A DNA stretch of 64,000 nt from contig OX637622.1 of NCBI GenBank assembly GCA_951802195.1, positions 620,001 to 684,000 on the forward strand. The letters are read 5' to 3'. Under the pieces are notes generated by a model that was not told the DNA's origin, did not search any database, and worked only from the letters and a program-made list of their open reading frames with translations. How positions within the stretch are numbered: position 1 is the first letter of the stretch; each line of letters opens with the position of its first letter. Positions 1 to 31,900 of the stretch are shown one piece after another. A program made the position numbers and the translations under genes. Source of the stretch: Tausonia pullulans (taxonomy: Eukaryota; Basidiomycota; Tremellomycetes; Cystofilobasidiales; Mrakiaceae).

Positions 1-277
1 CCTGGAACGAGTCAAAGGCTCCCCGTTCATTTCGAGCTTTCGGGGCCCTCGCCTTCCGACCGGCCAAGTCCGCTCCTCGCTCTCTGGGGCGTTGGGTCGG
101 AGAGAAAGAAGGCGATTCCATAGGATTTTTCTTTGGTATACGGTGAGAGAACTAAGAGTACATACTTAGAAAGAGAATGAAAGGGAGAGAAAAAGAAAGA
201 ACGAGGCGCTGCCCGTGAAGATATATGTGCCGCCGTGCCCCAGCAAGCACAACAGCGAACTCCTGCGATTCCTCCTC
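1..277. other. Downstream flank of ERG9
   Basis: This is non-coding sequence 3' of the minus-strand squalene synthase stop codon. It would hold the ERG9 3' UTR and end region. I see no gene or RNA here. Confidence 0.5.
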
Positions 278-338
278 TTAGTCCGCGTACTGAAGCAGAA
301 GGGAAAAGTCAGCCAGCTGCTTGTCGCCATATAATCGA

Positions 339-376
<38 letters not shown>

Positions 377-2534
377 ACCTTCATGACGACCCAAACGACA
401 CCCCCTCCAAGCAGCCCCATGACCGCCAGCAGTGCGAGGATCATGCTCCCCAAGAGGTAGTAGTTCAGGTCCCCCTGCGACGCATCCTGAGCGAGTTGCT
501 GAGTCGTCAGCGGTGGCAGACCCTTGGACACCCGCCACTCGGCGCGCTCGCGGGCCCGCTTGCGGAGAGCCTTGGCGGCGTCGGCGTCGGCCTTGGCGGA
601 GGCGATCCGGAGACGAGCGTCGTTGGTCGATGTATCGAGAGTGGAAGTGGGGGCGCCGGGAGGGGTGTTGGGCGAGGGGGCGATGAGTTGGATGAAGGAG
701 GGGTACTCTGGGGGAGCCAATGTCAGTGTGGTGTGAGTATCCAGTATGTATGGGAGACAGAGCATGCGACACTCACGGTGCTCGGTCCACTGCTCGATCT
801 TCCCGCATGCGATGGAGATCTTGATGAACGAAGGGTCCGCTGGAACAGCCTTGGCGTGGATCTTGCGGGCGTAGTCGCGGAAGAGGTACGCGACGTCCCT
901 CGGGTTGGTGCACTTCATGATGAGCTGGACGGCCTGACCCTTGCGGATCTTGATGTTGCGTCGGAAGACCTCCTTGTTCATGAAGCACAGCTCAAGCGTT
1001 GCGATCGCCATGACGGCGGGGATGGCGCAAAAGTTGAAGGCGCTCTGGTTCTTGAGGAGGCTGAGGTAGTCGAGCCCGTCGATGCAGTGACCGAGAGCGT
1101 CGACGACCATGGCCGAGAGGACCCAGAGTGCCTTGTCCTCGTTCTCCGGCCGAACGAGCTCCTTGAGTGAGGTGAACCCTCCGAACCTCTCAGACCCCCA
1201 GATCTCCCGAGGCCAGAAGGCGCGGCCGTCATCCGTGTCCTCGCGGATGTCGCGGAGAATGTTGGTCTTCTGGAGGAGGAGACCGAGCGAGTTGGAGAGG
1301 ACGAGCTGGTCGGCGAGCCAGGGCCGTTCCTTGCCCGTAGAGGAGAAGAGACCCGAGAGACCCTCGCCGACAAGACCAGCGACGTAGTGGCAGTAGAGCG
1401 AGAAGTCCTCCATCGTCGCCACCTCGGCGACGGGCTTCTCGGGCGTCGATCGGGCCGCGAAATCGGCCATGCCGTTGCCCATCTTGCGGGCGATGTCGGC
1501 AATGATCTTCTGGTTGCTGAAGGGGGTTGAGGGGGGGTTCGGGAGTGTATGTGTGTCAGTCAAGGGCCTACGGACACCTTCGGCTCGTCTGACGCCCTCG
1601 CACCACTCACTCGACGTTCAAGTTGTTGAACTCCTCAACGACGACCTCGAACCTGACGAGCAGCGCTCGGTCTTTCTCCTTCTCACCCGAGCCGTTAAAG
1701 TTCCATCCGGGCTGGTAGAGCTTCTCGTGGAACGACCGGAGGAGGGGGAGCTTGACGTCGTTCGGGAGCGACATGTCGTCCTCGATCGTGTCGAGGCCGC
1801 GGAGGACGAGGTAGAAGATGCAGATCTAGGAGACCACAAGAGCGGTCAGCTCATCGCGTCCCTCGCATCTGCGGCCGAGAGGGAGCAGTCGGGCGGGGCC
1901 GCCCTCCCAGCCAGCGACCGACAGAGAGCGCACTCACGCATCGTGCGAGATCCCCGTCCAGCTCCTTGATGACCGCCGCGAACGACCTCGAGGTCAAGTC
2001 GAGGAACGTCCAGCAGTCCCGCATCGACTCGCGGTCCCATCCGGACGTCGCGTGCTCCTGCTTCGCGGTGATGTCGCGCTTAGGGTCGTGCCAGATGAAG
2101 TACTGGGCGAGCGCACGGAACTCATTCTGGAGGAGACGAAGGGGGAAAGACGATAGAGACGATGGATGCGTTGGGGCAGGGAAGGGAAGCCGCCGGGACC
2201 GAGCAAGAGGGACGGGAGAAGGAAGAGCGTGTTCACCGTCGGGCCGGAGAAAACGCGGCGAGATCGACGTGGCGAAGGTGGAGAGCAGGAGGAATGGAGT
2301 CGGGTGCGTCAGGATTCGGCTCGCGGGTGGGGGGGAAGGCTCAACCCGGAGGATCTCTCTGTCCAGGACGTACGGGATGAGTGAGGACTGGAGAAGCCAC
2401 GAAAGCAAGAAGGAAGGAGAGAGAGCGCGCCGTCAGCACAGACCGCGGGTCTCGCTCGCGCCAGCACACGCCGGACGCAGGTCGGCGAGCGAGCGAGGCG
2501 ACGCACGAAGCTTGACGTGTTCGGCGATGCCCAT
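278..2534 (-). CDS. ERG9: Squalene synthase (farnesyl-diphosphate farnesyltransferase)
   Basis: It condenses two farnesyl diphosphates to squalene at the ER membrane, the first committed step of ergosterol synthesis. My exon model (complement) is 2507-2534, 2374-2387, 1938-2126, 1611-1825, 777-1516, 379-707 and 278-289, giving 508 aa, a normal length for the family. All splice sites are GT..AG and phases agree. The N-terminus reads [10 protein letters not shown] then LTHP then [13 protein letters not shown], the usual fungal start. Exon 3 (1611-1825) carries the first Asp-rich motif DTIEDD in [13 protein letters not shown]. Exon 4 (777-1516) carries [12 protein letters not shown] and the second motif [11 protein letters not shown]-terminal hydrophobic anchor ([16 protein letters not shown]) lies in exon 5 (379-707). 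The second exon is only 14 nt and the last holds three codons plus stop. The final intron contains a long GA/CT repeat. Family, frame and motifs are clear; the first two exons rest on motif restoration. Confidence 0.95.
345..372. repeat. (AG)n microsatellite inside the last ERG9 intron
   Basis: About 14 AG dinucleotide units in a row lie in the last ERG9 intron (290-378). On the coding strand this is a CT run just downstream of the 5' splice site. Confidence 0.9.
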
Positions 2535-4644: not shown

Positions 4645-4705
4645 CTAGAATAAAACCAAACGAAGGACGAGGCCAAAAGATTAACGGGGCTGAGTCGAGA
4701 TGGAT

Positions 4706-4784
4706 TATGAGCCCGACACGCTACCATTGCGCCAGCCCGCAGTTTTAGTTGCGGGCTCCAGTTTCGATCTGGAAACCTTCGGGT
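4706..4784 (-). tRNA. Circularly permuted initiator tRNA-Met (CAT)
   Basis: Read 5' to 3' on the minus strand, the 3' half comes first (4784-4749), then a 7-nt spacer CTAAAAC (4748-4742), then the 5' half (4741-4706). Joined at the canonical 37/38 position they form a full 72-nt cloverleaf. The acceptor stem is TGCGGGC with GCCCGCA (7/7), the D stem GCGC with GCGT (one G-U), the anticodon stem TCGGG with CCCGA (5/5), and the T stem TCCAG with CTGGA (5/5). The anticodon loop is CTCATAA. Initiator hallmarks are three G-C pairs flanking the anticodon loop and T-loop ATCGAAA (A54, A60). The internal Pol III boxes are in reversed order: B box GATCGAAAC (4769-4761) precedes A box TGGCGCAATGG (4734-4724). 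Position 1:72 is U-A instead of the usual eukaryotic A-U. No second half in normal order lies on either side. That the gene is used is inferred; that it folds is seen. Confidence 0.88.
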
Positions 4785-5081
4785 GCCGACACGCTCAACC
4801 ACGTTTCTCTGGATGAGGCATCTCCCTTGTTGGATACATAGACCCTTGGAGGAAAACGATCCAAAGTTTTGAACATGGGAGCGAGTTCATATCCTGCTCT
4901 TTCCACATGCTCCGTTTTGACTATATCAACGGCCGAGTCGACTACGTGTGGCGGCGCATCCCAACAGCTGTGTCACAGCACCAATCTGACGCCTCGACGG
5001 CGATCACGTCGCGCAAAACAAGAAAATACATCGACCATAAAGCTGCCTCCCACCAGGGAGCGTGATAGTCGAAGGCACCCC
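4785..5081. other. Spacer between the permuted tRNA and the PQ-loop gene
   Basis: About 300 bp upstream of the tRNA on the minus strand and downstream of the transporter stop. Its tRNA-proximal bases (4786-4800) can pair with the other tRNA flank. I see nothing else. Confidence 0.5.
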
Positions 5082-11660: not shown

Positions 11661-13588
11661 ATGCCCACCCAGCACAGGATGTCGACCAAGTACGACTCGT
11701 GGTCCAAGGAGGACCTTATCGCCCACGTCGTGCGCCTCGAGGCTAGCGTCGCAGCCGGGGCGGCGTCGGCCACAGCGGCGGCGCCCGACGCATCTTCCTC
11801 CTCCTCCTCCCTCACCACCACCCCCACCGGCTCCAACACCCTCCCTCCCCTCTCCGCCAAAGCCGTCAAGAAGCTCCTCACGCGGAAGCCCCGCCCGGCC
11901 GTCGACTTCTCCACCTACCCACGCCGCAAGATCGCCCTCAAGTTCACCTACCTTGGCGCCCCTTATGCCGGTCTCGCGCACCAAGGTCTTGGGGAGTCGC
12001 TTGAGACGCCGACGGTCGAAGCAGTCCTGATGGAGGCGCTGGAGAAGGCACATTTCATTGAGCCGGGCAAAGGGTGGGAGGCATGTGGGTTTGCGAGGTG
12101 CGGGAGGACAGACAAGGGGGTGAGTGCCGCGGGCCAGGTGGCTAGTCTTTGGGTGAGGAGTCGGCTGCCTTATGACCCGAGGATCCACGAGGCGAGGGAG
12201 GAGCAAGAGGAGGAGGAGGCAGAGGCTATCTTCGTCGACGAGAACGACGAAGAGTCGGCCATGAATGAGGGGCCGACGAAGATACGGACACCCGTAACCC
12301 TCAAGGAACGCAAGGCCGCTGCTTCGCCGCTCGAACATCCTTACGTCCACTTCCTCAATAAACTTCTTCCGCCGACGGTCCGTGTTCTCGCGTGGTCGCC
12401 TCTCCCTCCCGACGACTCGTTCGACGCCCGCTACTCGTGCACGTCGAGGCACTACAAGTACTTTTTCTCCCTCAACTCGACGCCCTCGGGGACCGGCCAG
12501 GGACTGCCTCTCGATGTCGAGGCGATGCGTGAGGCGGCGAGTTATCTCGTTGGCGAGCATGACTTTCGCAATTTGTGCAAGGTCGATGGGTCGAAGCAGA
12601 TCTCGACGTTCACCAGGCGGATCTACGCCGCGACGATCTCCCCCGTCTCGCCCGTCACGCCCAAGCCGTTCGCCATCTCCCCCTACTCATCCATCACGCC
12701 CTTCGACACCGCTCCCTCTAGCTCGAACCCTGGGTCTACCCTTGATGAGTTCTTCGTCCTTGACCTTCTCGGCCGCGCCTTCCTCTACCACCAAGTCCGG
12801 CACATTATGGCCGTCCTCTTCCGCGTTGGCGCGCGCCTCGAGCCACCAACGATCATCAAGGACCTCATCGCGTGGGAGACCAAGCCGGACTATCAGATGG
12901 CCGCTGGCGAACCGCTGCTTCTTTGGGACTGTGGGTTCCCCGAGGGCGTGCTCGACTGGCAATACGGAAGCGTACCGCTGCCGAAGGATCAGGAGGGAAG
13001 GGAGGCAGGGCTGCTGAATGAGCTGGTGGGGAGGCCCGCAGAGGAACTGGGTGGCGAGGAAGGCAAATTCTTCATTCATTGTAAGCCCTCACCCACCCGC
13101 TCGTCGTCCAATTCGAACGGCTGACCCGCCCTCCCTTCAAAGCCTTCGCCCAGCTGTCGGCCTCCATGATGGAAGTCATCCACGCCGCCCATCTCGACAC
13201 TCTCCTCCACGCCCACTTCCACGCCTCGCTTCTCCGCATCCACCCCGACCTCGTCCTCGAGGCTCCCACAGGCACCCCCCGCCGACACGGCGCCGACCCG
13301 CAGAACACACGCCAGCAGCCTCCCACCCTCAAGACACCCACGGGCCACAACAAGTTCAAGGTCGAGCAAGCCCGCGGGTACACGCCGCTCGCCAAGCGAT
13401 CGAGGGGGGAGCCACCGGAAGAGACGAACAAGAAGTACAGGGAGCGGATGGAGGCGAAGGGCAGGTGGGCGAAGGGCGGGGAGGGAGTGCCCGTAAAGGG
13501 TGGGGGGAGGAGGAGGGAGCAGGCCAGGTTGGGGCGGGATACGGAGAGGAATGGTGGGGTGGGAATGGAGGTGGATGAAGACGAGTGA
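11661..13588 (+). CDS. PUS3: tRNA pseudouridine(38/39) synthase
   Basis: A TruA-family synthase of the Deg1/Pus3 type, which isomerises uridine 38 and 39 in the anticodon stem of tRNAs. There are two exons, 11661-13080 and 13143-13588, giving 621 aa. The N-terminus WSKEDLIAHVVRLEA is the usual short helix. The core begins RRKIALKFTYLGAPYAG, and the catalytic Asp is in ARCGRTDKGVSAAGQVASL. FNLCKVD-type sequence appears as DFRNLCKVDGSKQ. RAFLYHQVRHIMAVLFRVG is the conserved C-terminal helix. The second exon ends with ARGYTPLAKRSRGEPPEETN, typical of Deg1 tails. An acidic insert (EEQEEEEAEAIFVDENDEE) interrupts the catalytic domain near 12200. Start codons at 11631 and 11679 are also possible; 11661 is preceded by an acceptor-like CCCCAG, so a 5' leader intron cannot be excluded. 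Confidence 0.93.
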
Positions 13589-28929: not shown

Positions 28930-31900
28930 ATGGACGTCTTCGCCGCCCAGCGAGCTTTTGCCTCGCTTCCGTCCGACCTTCTTCGCGAGCCTGTCACGCC
29001 CAACGCCTCGTCGTCTTCATCGGGGGCCGCCGCCGCCTTTGTCTCGCTTGTTTCCTCTTCATCTGGCAAACCGTGAGTCCTTAGGGCCTAGAGAGAGAGA
29101 GATAGAGAGAGCATTAAGGCGCACTCAATCTGATATGTTGATCTCCAGAACCCACATCCCGGCCTCATTTTGGAAGGACCCTCGGACGCACCTCGCCTCG
29201 GGCGCCGCCCTCTCGGTCATCCTCTTCCTTGTCCAATTCGCGCTCATCCCCGCGGCGGGCAAGCTCTACAGATGGGCCCGGGGTGATAGCCCTCGCAACA
29301 AGATGGCCGGCTACGAGTCAATCTCTTCCTCCTCGTCGGACACCGACGCCTCGGCCACTGTCTACGACGCTGAGTCGCTCTCACCAGAGGCAACGAACAA
29401 GTCCCAGAGCTTCGTCGACCGCAACGGCGGCGCGTCCCGGCTCGCCTGGGGCCTCATCCGTCTCGCCTCGCTTGTTGGACTCGTCGTCCTCGCGACGCTC
29501 GCGTCCTTCTACGCCCACGGACAGAAGGAGACCCTTATTGAGCTCGCCGGCGTCGCGTTCTACGTCAGTTGCTCTTGCTGTTCGGGGGCAGCCCGCGCGG
29601 CGCGGCCAGGGTGGCCATCGTTGTCCTCTCAAGAGCTCGCTTCTGACTCGCAATTATGCCATCTCTGCAGTCCTATCTCGTTCTCCTATCCGTCCTGTCC
29701 ATCACCTTCAAACCTTCGATCCGATCTACGTTCACCTCGGTCGTTAAGGGCCACATTGTCATCCTTCTTCTTGGAGGTTCGTCGGTCCTTCCTGGCTTTG
29801 CTCTGGGCTTCTGTCTACATGTCTGACTGCGGTTCTCTTATTTGCTTAGACTGGACTGTCTTCGCCATCCGGGATATTCTCCCAATGGCGACCTTTACGA
29901 TCAGCCCAGCCGACAATCTCAATACTATCACTTGGGCTCGCCTCGGCCTCCTCACCTTTGTCGCCCTCGCCCCGCCGCTCTTCACGCCGCGTGCCTACAT
30001 TCCGCTTGACCCGTCGGGGAAAGGTTCACCGACGCCCGAACAAACGACCTCAGTCGCGGCGCTCATCTTCTTCACTTTCCTTGACCCCTTCATCTTCTTC
30101 GCCTGGAAGCGGCCCGCCGTCCCCTTCGACGAGCTCCCACCGCTCGGCGACATCGACATGGCCCAGTACCTCCGCCACAATCTCCTTCACCAGCTAGACC
30201 CGCTGTCCAAGGACCCCCGGGCGCCTAAGGGTTATCGGCACCTTGGCTGGCGCATCATCCTCTGCTGGAAGTGGGAGTTCCTCCTCTGCACCGTCCTCAG
30301 CGGCATCTACACGTGTCTTGAATTTGTCGCTCCCTTCGCGGTCAATCGATTGCTTGCTTATCTCGAGGACAACGACGAGGTCGCCATCATGAAACCCTGG
30401 TTCTGGATTGCTGGAATCGGACTTGGTCCCTTTGTCCAGGGGTGCGTGGCCTCCTTCTCCATCACTCAGAGACGAAATTTCTGACGCGTTAGCTCTCCCC
30501 AGACTTACCTTTAACTACCTCATCTATGTCTCGACACGATTCATGTGCCGGTGCGAGAGCATCATCACACAGCTCATTTTCGAACACTCGCTTCGCATCC
30601 AGCTCCGCGATGACCCTGCTAAGACCAAGGGCGACACCGAGGCAGATGACACGGACCAGTCGGGTAACCTCGTCGGCCGGATCAACAATCTCATGTCATC
30701 CGATCTTGACTCACTTATCAACGCGCGCATGATCATGCTGTGGGTCGCGTCTTCTTTTTTCTCCTTTGTCAGATAGCATGCTGACTTCTCCCCCCCCCCC
30801 CCCCCTTCCCTCCCCCAAACCAAAGCGACCTCGTCTCTGCCCCGCTTGGCATCGCTATCTCCGTCATAGGACTCTACAACATCCTCGGCTGGTCCAGTCT
30901 CGTTGGCATCGCGACCCTGAGTACGTCGTCTCCTCACGCATAAACAGTTGTGCTCCGCGTTGACTCTTTGTCATCTCCTCCACGGCTAGTCCTCACAACC
31001 CCACTTCCTGCAACGCTTGCCGTCCTGCAGCATGGAACGCAGAAGAAGTTCACTGAGGCCTCAGACGCCCGTGTCACCAAGATCACTGAAGCCATCAACT
31101 CGCTCCGAATCACCAAGATGTTTGGAATTGAGGAGAACGTCAAGAACCAGATCCAGGACCTCCGTGCCAATGAGCTCCGCCTCAACAGGAAGCGCAAGCT
31201 CATCGGTCTCGTCATGTCGTGAGTTCGCTCCCATTGGGTGTAGGTACCGATCAAAACTGAAGCTGACACGCGCTCTGCTGCGACTAGTGTCACCAACTAC
31301 ACCCTCCCGCTGCTTGTCATGGTCGTCACGTTTGGTGTCTTTACTGTTATTCAGGGCGGTATCCTCACTTCGTCCAAGGTCTTCTCCGGTCAGTCGTTCA
31401 CCGCTGAGATTGTTGTTAACACTTGCTCACCTTCCCCTTTCTTCTCAAAGCCATCTCGGTCTTTGCCATCTTCTCCCAGTCGCTCAGCACTTTCTTCCAG
31501 GCATCGCGCTACATCGAGTCAAACGTCTCGCTCCAGCGTATCAACAAGTTCCTGCACAACACTGAGCTCATCGACCGCTACGTCGAGGGTCGTGCTTCTC
31601 CCGCCGCCACCCAGGAGGATCCGGAGTTCATCGGCTTCCGCAACGCGACGTTCTCTTGGATCACCAACGCTGCGTCTAAGGACGACGAGAACATTCGAAA
31701 CTTCCGGCTCCATTTCGATGACCTTCGCTTCCAGAAGGGCAAGCTCAACGTCATTGCCGGACCTGTAAGTTCTTGCCTGTGGGCTGTGCCCCAACTCGAC
31801 TGACACAGATGGCCCCCCAACTTTCCTTTCTAGACCGGCTCGGGCAAGACCTCCCTCCTCATGGCTGTGAGTTCAGGCCTGCCGCCCGCTCCCCCCGCTC

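Follow-up and report, generated by a model that had tools for sequence, protein, structure and literature searches.

How might a fungus obtain its initiator tRNA from a gene whose two halves stand in the reverse of the usual order? This question is raised by positions 4706–4784 on the minus strand of the 64-kb window (the whole stretch of DNA that was analysed), where the 3′ half of a tRNA precedes its 5′ half. Read in the direction of the gene, a TATA-like element, CTATGTAT, lies at 4834..4841, about 56 nt 5′ of the 3′ half, and a leader at 4785..4816 (32 nt as analysed) is complementary to the trailer and carries a G at position −3. The 3′ half occupies 4784–4749 (36 nt, tRNA positions 38–73, with the B box inside), a 7-nt linker, CTAAAAC, at 4748–4742 joins position 73 to position 1, and the 5′ half follows at 4741–4706 (36 nt, positions 1–37), containing the CAU anticodon and the A box. 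The trailer, complementary to the leader, spans 4675..4705 and ends in a TTTT run (4675–4678) that is probably the Pol III terminator of this copy. The TATA-like element and the linker were placed from the sequence, the 3′ half from the sequence and a covariance model (CM), the 5′ half from sequence, pattern and CM, and the trailer from sequence and pairing analysis. Joined at 37/38, the halves give a cloverleaf with the acceptor (7/7), T (5/5) and anticodon (5/5) stems all paired and the D stem at 4/4 with one G-U, and this copy has a T-loop reading AUCGAAA (A54 and A60) and three G-C pairs beside the anticodon loop. The first-pass annotation had given these half coordinates, which are exact, and had described a complete cloverleaf with a CAT anticodon, the initiator marks A54/A60 and three anticodon-stem G-C pairs, and a B-then-A order of the promoter boxes, each of which is present as described. 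The analysis supports reading the locus as a fungal initiator tRNA-Met gene in circularly permuted form, which is the best interpretation of it.

It had also been foreseen that gene finders expecting the normal order would pass the locus by, and both programs did so: ARAGORN reported no tRNA in the 64-kb window, nor did Rfam at its gathering threshold. In 11 representative loci of the family described below, Rfam likewise passed over the permuted gene, whereas it detected normal tRNA genes beside two of those 11 loci and in the comparison locus L025. The covariance search on rotated halves that the first-pass annotation had proposed was run with a model whose training set comprised nine elongator sequences from this genome (for tRNA-Ala, -Asn, -Trp and -Arg), each rotated at 37/38, and zero initiators. 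It returned 4706–4784 on the minus strand at 53.5 bits (E = 3.9e-15) and no second match in the 64-kb window up to E = 10. Because a model built without initiators finds the locus at such a value, and matches nothing else in the window at that limit, a chance origin is excluded. Over the window and the 11 representative loci, the permuted genes scored 52.7–61.1 bits, and the same model gave just three other matches there, at 8.9–17.4 bits. When 40 further loci of the genome were searched, eight records containing a permuted gene reached 52.7–60.3 bits, and everything else, normal tRNA genes included, stayed at or below 34.8 bits.

The identity of the tRNA rests on several features. An A at position 60 and an anticodon stem containing three G-C pairs are typical of the eukaryotic initiator, as is A54 in the T-loop. 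The latter, within A54U55C56, is named as an initiator mark in section 4 of a 2014 review (Soma 2014, PMC3978253), and a passage of PMC8450103 gives A1:U72 as another typical eukaryotic initiator feature. The family departs from this last feature, with U1-A72 at pair 1:72 in 14/14 genes (window positions 4741 and 4750). A1:U72 is typical but not universal, and Schizosaccharomyces pombe is an exception. We use the initiator label because of A54/A60 and the stem G-C pairs, and because these are the only set of non-elongator CAU genes that was found. The elongator tRNA-Met is a separate gene with the T-loop TTCGAAT; BLAST with its joined exons gave 13 genes, every one in normal order over 83–84 bp, equivalent to a 10–11 nt insert, and in the two examined ARAGORN predicts a 10-nt intron at 37/38. 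A guess at the D-arm of the elongator Met gene was discarded, as its 79 places were, by their letters, all Asn, Lys or Ala genes. The pattern GATCGAAAC occurred at no fewer than 208 places, against 94 for its reversed control, a comparison that carries no information here.

The search was extended to the genome assembly of 23.86 Mb in 21 contigs. BLAST with the joined 72 nt at E up to 10 produced 28 half-matches that form exactly 14 pairs, on contigs 1, 3, 6, 7, 9, 11 and 14, and in all 14 the 3′ half comes before the 5′ half. When the initiator 5′ half was searched as a pattern with up to 3 mismatches allowed, those 14 genes were recovered genome-wide and none further. Thirteen of the 14 share one and the same body; the remaining gene (L051, contig 1) differs at two positions that together form one T-stem pair, A52-U62 having become G52-C62 in a compensatory change. 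Contigs 14, 7 and 6 each carry one pair of genes with near-identical flanks, so that the family comprises 11 distinct genes. The linker measures 5–8 nt throughout and is of six types across the family: CTAAC, CTAAAC, CTAAAAC, CTAAACAA, CATAAC and CTTAAC. A permuted-initiator pattern was also followed into viral contigs (30 stretches) and genome contigs (at least 119 stretches, 80 of them taken as loci); all 14 loci of the genome itself have a complete T stem (5/5) together with a complete acceptor (7/7), a combination missing from each of the 110 outside loci that were examined.

No normal-order initiator gene was present among the BLAST matches at E up to 10, and a pattern for the normal order, running from the anticodon arm to the T-loop with up to 3 mismatches, gave 4 matches, all of which had 3 mismatches and looked unlike a tRNA by eye. 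A normal-order twin with an identical body, which the first-pass annotation had named as part of what would overturn its reading, was thus sought by BLAST and by patterns, and these searches of the assembly found none. The idea that the locus might be the sole initiator gene fared unevenly: the single locus is one of 14, but the arrangement is shared by all of them. The 14 permuted genes appear to be the sole cytoplasmic initiator tRNA genes of the assembly, "sole" being meant within this assembly, whose completeness is not stated. That every copy is permuted, that there are 11 flanking contexts and that no normal-order copy was found argues against both a normal twin and an assembly error. 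A different relationship would be that the permuted genes are functional but supplementary, the normal-order initiator being unassembled or diverged beyond the reach of the searches. An assembly of 21 contigs with unstated completeness, and a search that scored the best candidates only, speak for such a gene; but BLAST, even at E up to 10, gave just the halves of the permuted genes, the 5′-half pattern gave exactly 14, the four normal-order matches did not resemble tRNAs, and 13 elongator Met genes are present in the same assembly, so that we regard a supplementary role as improbable.

With the order of the halves reversed, the signals around these genes become of particular interest. An exact TATA starts 53–60 nt 5′ of the 3′ half in 11/14 genes, the window copy being among the 3 without it, and a run of at least four T begins 13–29 nt after the 5′ half in 14/14. 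Counting distinct genes, a TATA lies 20–70 nt upstream of 8/11 permuted genes versus 7/50 normal tRNA genes (Fisher p = 2.5e-4; 7/61 when all normal genes are counted, with the mitochondrial locus L212 excluded), a comparison made against mostly Asn, Ala, Trp and Arg genes. Since 63 of 897 candidates were scored, this normal inventory covers part of the set, with a skewed mix of isotypes. TATA-directed initiation is a natural reading because the B box precedes the A box, and a start about 25–30 nt below the TATA would yield a leader of roughly the length seen to be complementary to the trailer. The same mode of initiation has been proposed for the permuted genes of Cyanidioschyzon merolae (PMC3978253, section 5). 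According to that section, TFC1 and TFC3 homologues have not been identified in C. merolae, in contrast to the Tausonia genome, where the TFIIIC B-block family has one match.

The constant body and the leader–trailer pairing point to selection at the RNA level. Leaders of the 11 distinct genes average 28% identity and trailers 32%, and as a group the leaders nevertheless pair best with their own partners: the mean energy of own leader with own trailer was −16.8 kcal/mol, versus −9.7 kcal/mol when partners were swapped, 0 of 100,000 permutations were as good, and the own trailer ranked first for 7/11 leaders. The absolute energies of these own pairings are not exceptional, control flank pairs taken 200–1200 nt away averaging −12.5 kcal/mol, with 23/121 reaching the own median; it is the swap test, because it preserves composition, that constitutes the evidence for gene-specific pairing. 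In unconstrained minimum free energy (MFE) folding, 13/14 precursors formed the cloverleaf together with leader–trailer pairing, and in the fourteenth (L042) the free MFE structure was not a cloverleaf, which lay within 0.5 kcal/mol. Forcing the cloverleaf cost 0.5–1.6 kcal/mol in 14/14, and the leader kept 10–23 pairs with the anticodon loop or the trailer.

The key anticodon–intron pair of a tRNA precursor is that between position 32 and the third-last base of the intron. If the leader is read as the 3′ end of an intron, its position −3 is G in 14/14 genes and stands opposite C32. The 32:−3 pair is also kept in 12/12 normal intron genes in which ARAGORN sets the intron exactly at 37/38; of the 19 intron genes it predicted, 7 fail the rule, and all 7 have predicted boundaries off 37/38. 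Measured against the BHB motif or its relaxed hBH form, the junction is a candidate only: it has gene-specific leader–trailer pairing and a constant G(−3), but the isolated C32:G(−3) pair was drawn by the energy model in 0/14 folds. Reliance of the eukaryotic splicing endonuclease on anticodon–intron base pairs is described in section 8 of PMC3978253. Candidates for the enzymes are at hand in the genome, with two places that match the tRNA-intron endonuclease family and, on contig 6 at 341576–344786 (L247:1576–4786), a TRL1-type tRNA ligase gene recognised by domain matches, its ligase, kinase and phosphodiesterase domains lying in separate frames. Ordinary tRNA genes with introns in this genome (those for elongator Met, Lys, Asp and Leu) share the 37/38 junction and the 32:−3 pair with the permuted genes, differing in that their halves are in normal order, and processing by SEN and TRL1 is expected for them.

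A route from gene to tRNA can be proposed from these elements. Pol III, positioned by the upstream TATA since the B box comes ahead of the A box, would transcribe leader, 3′ half, linker, 5′ half and trailer through to the T run, as the anatomy of the genes suggests. The transcript is predicted to fold as a cloverleaf in which a leader–trailer helix extends the anticodon stem and takes the place of a tRNA intron, leaving G(−3) available to C32 for what would be the anticodon–intron pair. SEN endonuclease, judging from the matching genes, would then cut after 37 and before 38, and TRL1 would join 37 to 38 into a circle closed by the linker of 5–8 nt. By analogy with the algal pathway, RNase P and tRNase Z would excise the linker, and CCA would be added. 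We hold with high confidence that this is a type II (junction 37/38) permuted initiator tRNA-Met gene, one of 14 that are apparently the sole cytoplasmic initiator genes, with this Pol III–SEN–TRL1–circle route as its proposed processing.

The order of the last steps may be questioned. There might be no circle at all, should linker excision by RNase P and tRNase Z come first while the stems hold the halves together, with SEN and TRL1 joining 37 to 38 later, just as they splice an ordinary intron. The shortness of the linker in 14/14 genes is favourable to this order, and the acceptor stem and T arm, which both enzymes recognise, are complete in the predicted folds of the linear precursor. A circle was detected in algae, however (PMC3978253, section 6), and the sequence alone does not settle the order of the cuts; we accord the linker-first order only a slim chance.

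Less credible still is that the genes are inactive relics, either dispersed rearranged tRNA pseudogenes or a tRNA-derived repeat. Their multicopy, dispersed nature and the three pairs with near-identical flanks would suit a repeat, but 13/14 bodies are identical and the fourteenth carries a compensatory pair, leaders pair with their own trailers despite otherwise dissimilar flanks, G(−3) is constant in 14/14, and the assembly searched has no other initiator gene, which together render decay very improbable. The order of the halves would suit two transcripts, as in a split tRNA whose halves are made separately and joined in trans. The T run is found solely after the 5′ half and the TATA solely before the 3′ half, however, and the spacing of 5–8 nt in 14/14 genes leaves no space for a terminator and a promoter, so that the halves do not form separate transcription units and a split tRNA is highly unlikely. 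An assembly error, which the first-pass annotation had named as a possible source of the arrangement, or a tandem array read out of frame can be dismissed almost outright: nothing seen speaks for it, the genes are spread over seven contigs at 14 places with 11 distinct sets of flanks, and exactly 28 halves means no extra half beside any pair.

Permuted tRNA genes are best known from algae. Soma (2014) counted 34 of them in six algae and one archaeon, including permuted initiator genes in C. merolae, two Micromonas and Thermofilum, and cites Soma 2007 and Maruyama 2010 (PMC3978253). Sections 4 and 10 of the review place permuted genes only in unicellular algae (one nucleomorph included) and one crenarchaeon, and add that yeasts might in principle have such genes but that most eukaryotes lack them. 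The statement of the first-pass annotation that such genes are known from algae and archaea, not fungi, agrees with these sections, and no permuted tRNA gene of a fungus was found in titles and abstract openings of open-licence papers, subscription papers and outside preprints lying beyond that scope. Within the same scope, no open-licence paper matched initiator tRNA in Phaffia, and two Mrakia genome papers annotated tRNAs with tRNAscan-SE, their tRNA passages being silent on permuted genes (PMC12749792, PMC5100859). In the green alga Auxenochlorella, as described in PMC12633428, the tRNAscan-SE set was incomplete and permuted genes were then found.

The genes described here resemble the type II genes of green algae and C. 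merolae in having the 3′ half upstream, a junction at the canonical intron site and a short intervening sequence, as well as an upstream TATA-like element, a downstream T stretch and leader–trailer pairing; Micromonas, too, has its initiator Met isotype permuted (PMC3978253). They differ from the algal genes in belonging to a fungus and in forming a dispersed family of 14 copies with no normal-order member found, whereas in Table 1 of the review each anticodon has a single gene per species, the exceptions being Gly in C. merolae and Ser(CGA) in O. tauri, with two genes each. Their linkers of 5–8 nt compare with 12 and 47 in the Micromonas initiator genes (PMC3978253). Thermofilum pendens likewise has a permuted initiator gene, but it is an archaeon and its gene has the junction at 59/60 and an additional intron (PMC3978253, Table 1). 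By mechanism these are type II permuted genes; the new features are the kingdom, the existence of a multicopy family and the lack of a normal-order initiator gene, as far as the assembly was searched.

That the host is a fungus, as the first-pass annotation had claimed, is upheld by a DEG1/PUS3-like protein encoded at window positions 11661–13121. Among the best 120 of 1536 matches, the closest that bear an organism name are Phaffia rhodozyma (52%) and Mrakia frigida (55%, partial), followed by other named basidiomycetes at about 36–45%, with further sequences at 98% and 61%. Phaffia rhodozyma and Mrakia frigida belong to the Cystofilobasidiales, and we take the host to be a basidiomycete close to that order. 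A piece of cytochrome b and the open frame at window positions 28958–30481 yielded no useful taxonomic signal. Also near the tRNA gene is an open frame at window positions 166–1563 on the minus strand that, by eye, resembles squalene synthase. Elsewhere in the genome, a permuted initiator gene at contig 6: 345176–345252 (L247:5176–5252, located with the rotated CM) is a close neighbour of TRL1, whose last frame ends about 390 bp upstream of it; this tRNA would be the expected ligation substrate of TRL1. Between about 685 and 1021 kb of the same contig (L021–L028), blocks of Leu, Lys, Asn, Glu, Ala and Met tRNA genes recur hundreds of bp apart, and the stretch reads as a duplicated tRNA-rich region. 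Contig 21 (L245, L246) is 18.8 kb long with about 50% G+C; ARAGORN predicts 22 distinct tRNAs on it (23 rows, of which one falls in the overlap), and its long frames resemble cob, cox1 and nad genes by eye, so that it is apparently the mitochondrial genome. A G+C content of about 50% is high for a fungal mitochondrial genome.

The broader meaning of the family lies in the isotype concerned. An essential initiator tRNA that seemingly comes from 14 permuted genes would mean that permutation can come to account for an entire isotype beyond the algae. That ARAGORN misses the gene in the window, and that Rfam misses it there and in the 11 representative loci, may also point to a general cause of missing initiator Met annotations. 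If the host is culturable and can be manipulated, one could test directly how genes with reversed A and B boxes are transcribed, how SEN and TRL1 recognise their transcripts and why permutation arose. On the proposed route, the initiation of translation would depend on tRNA splicing. We consider it likely that all cytoplasmic initiation in this organism relies on an RNA that is spliced and circularised, the normal gene having been wholly replaced by a TATA-driven permuted family, and that SEN and TRL1 are in effect required. If so, initiation could be coupled to tRNA splicing and to the other jobs of TRL1.
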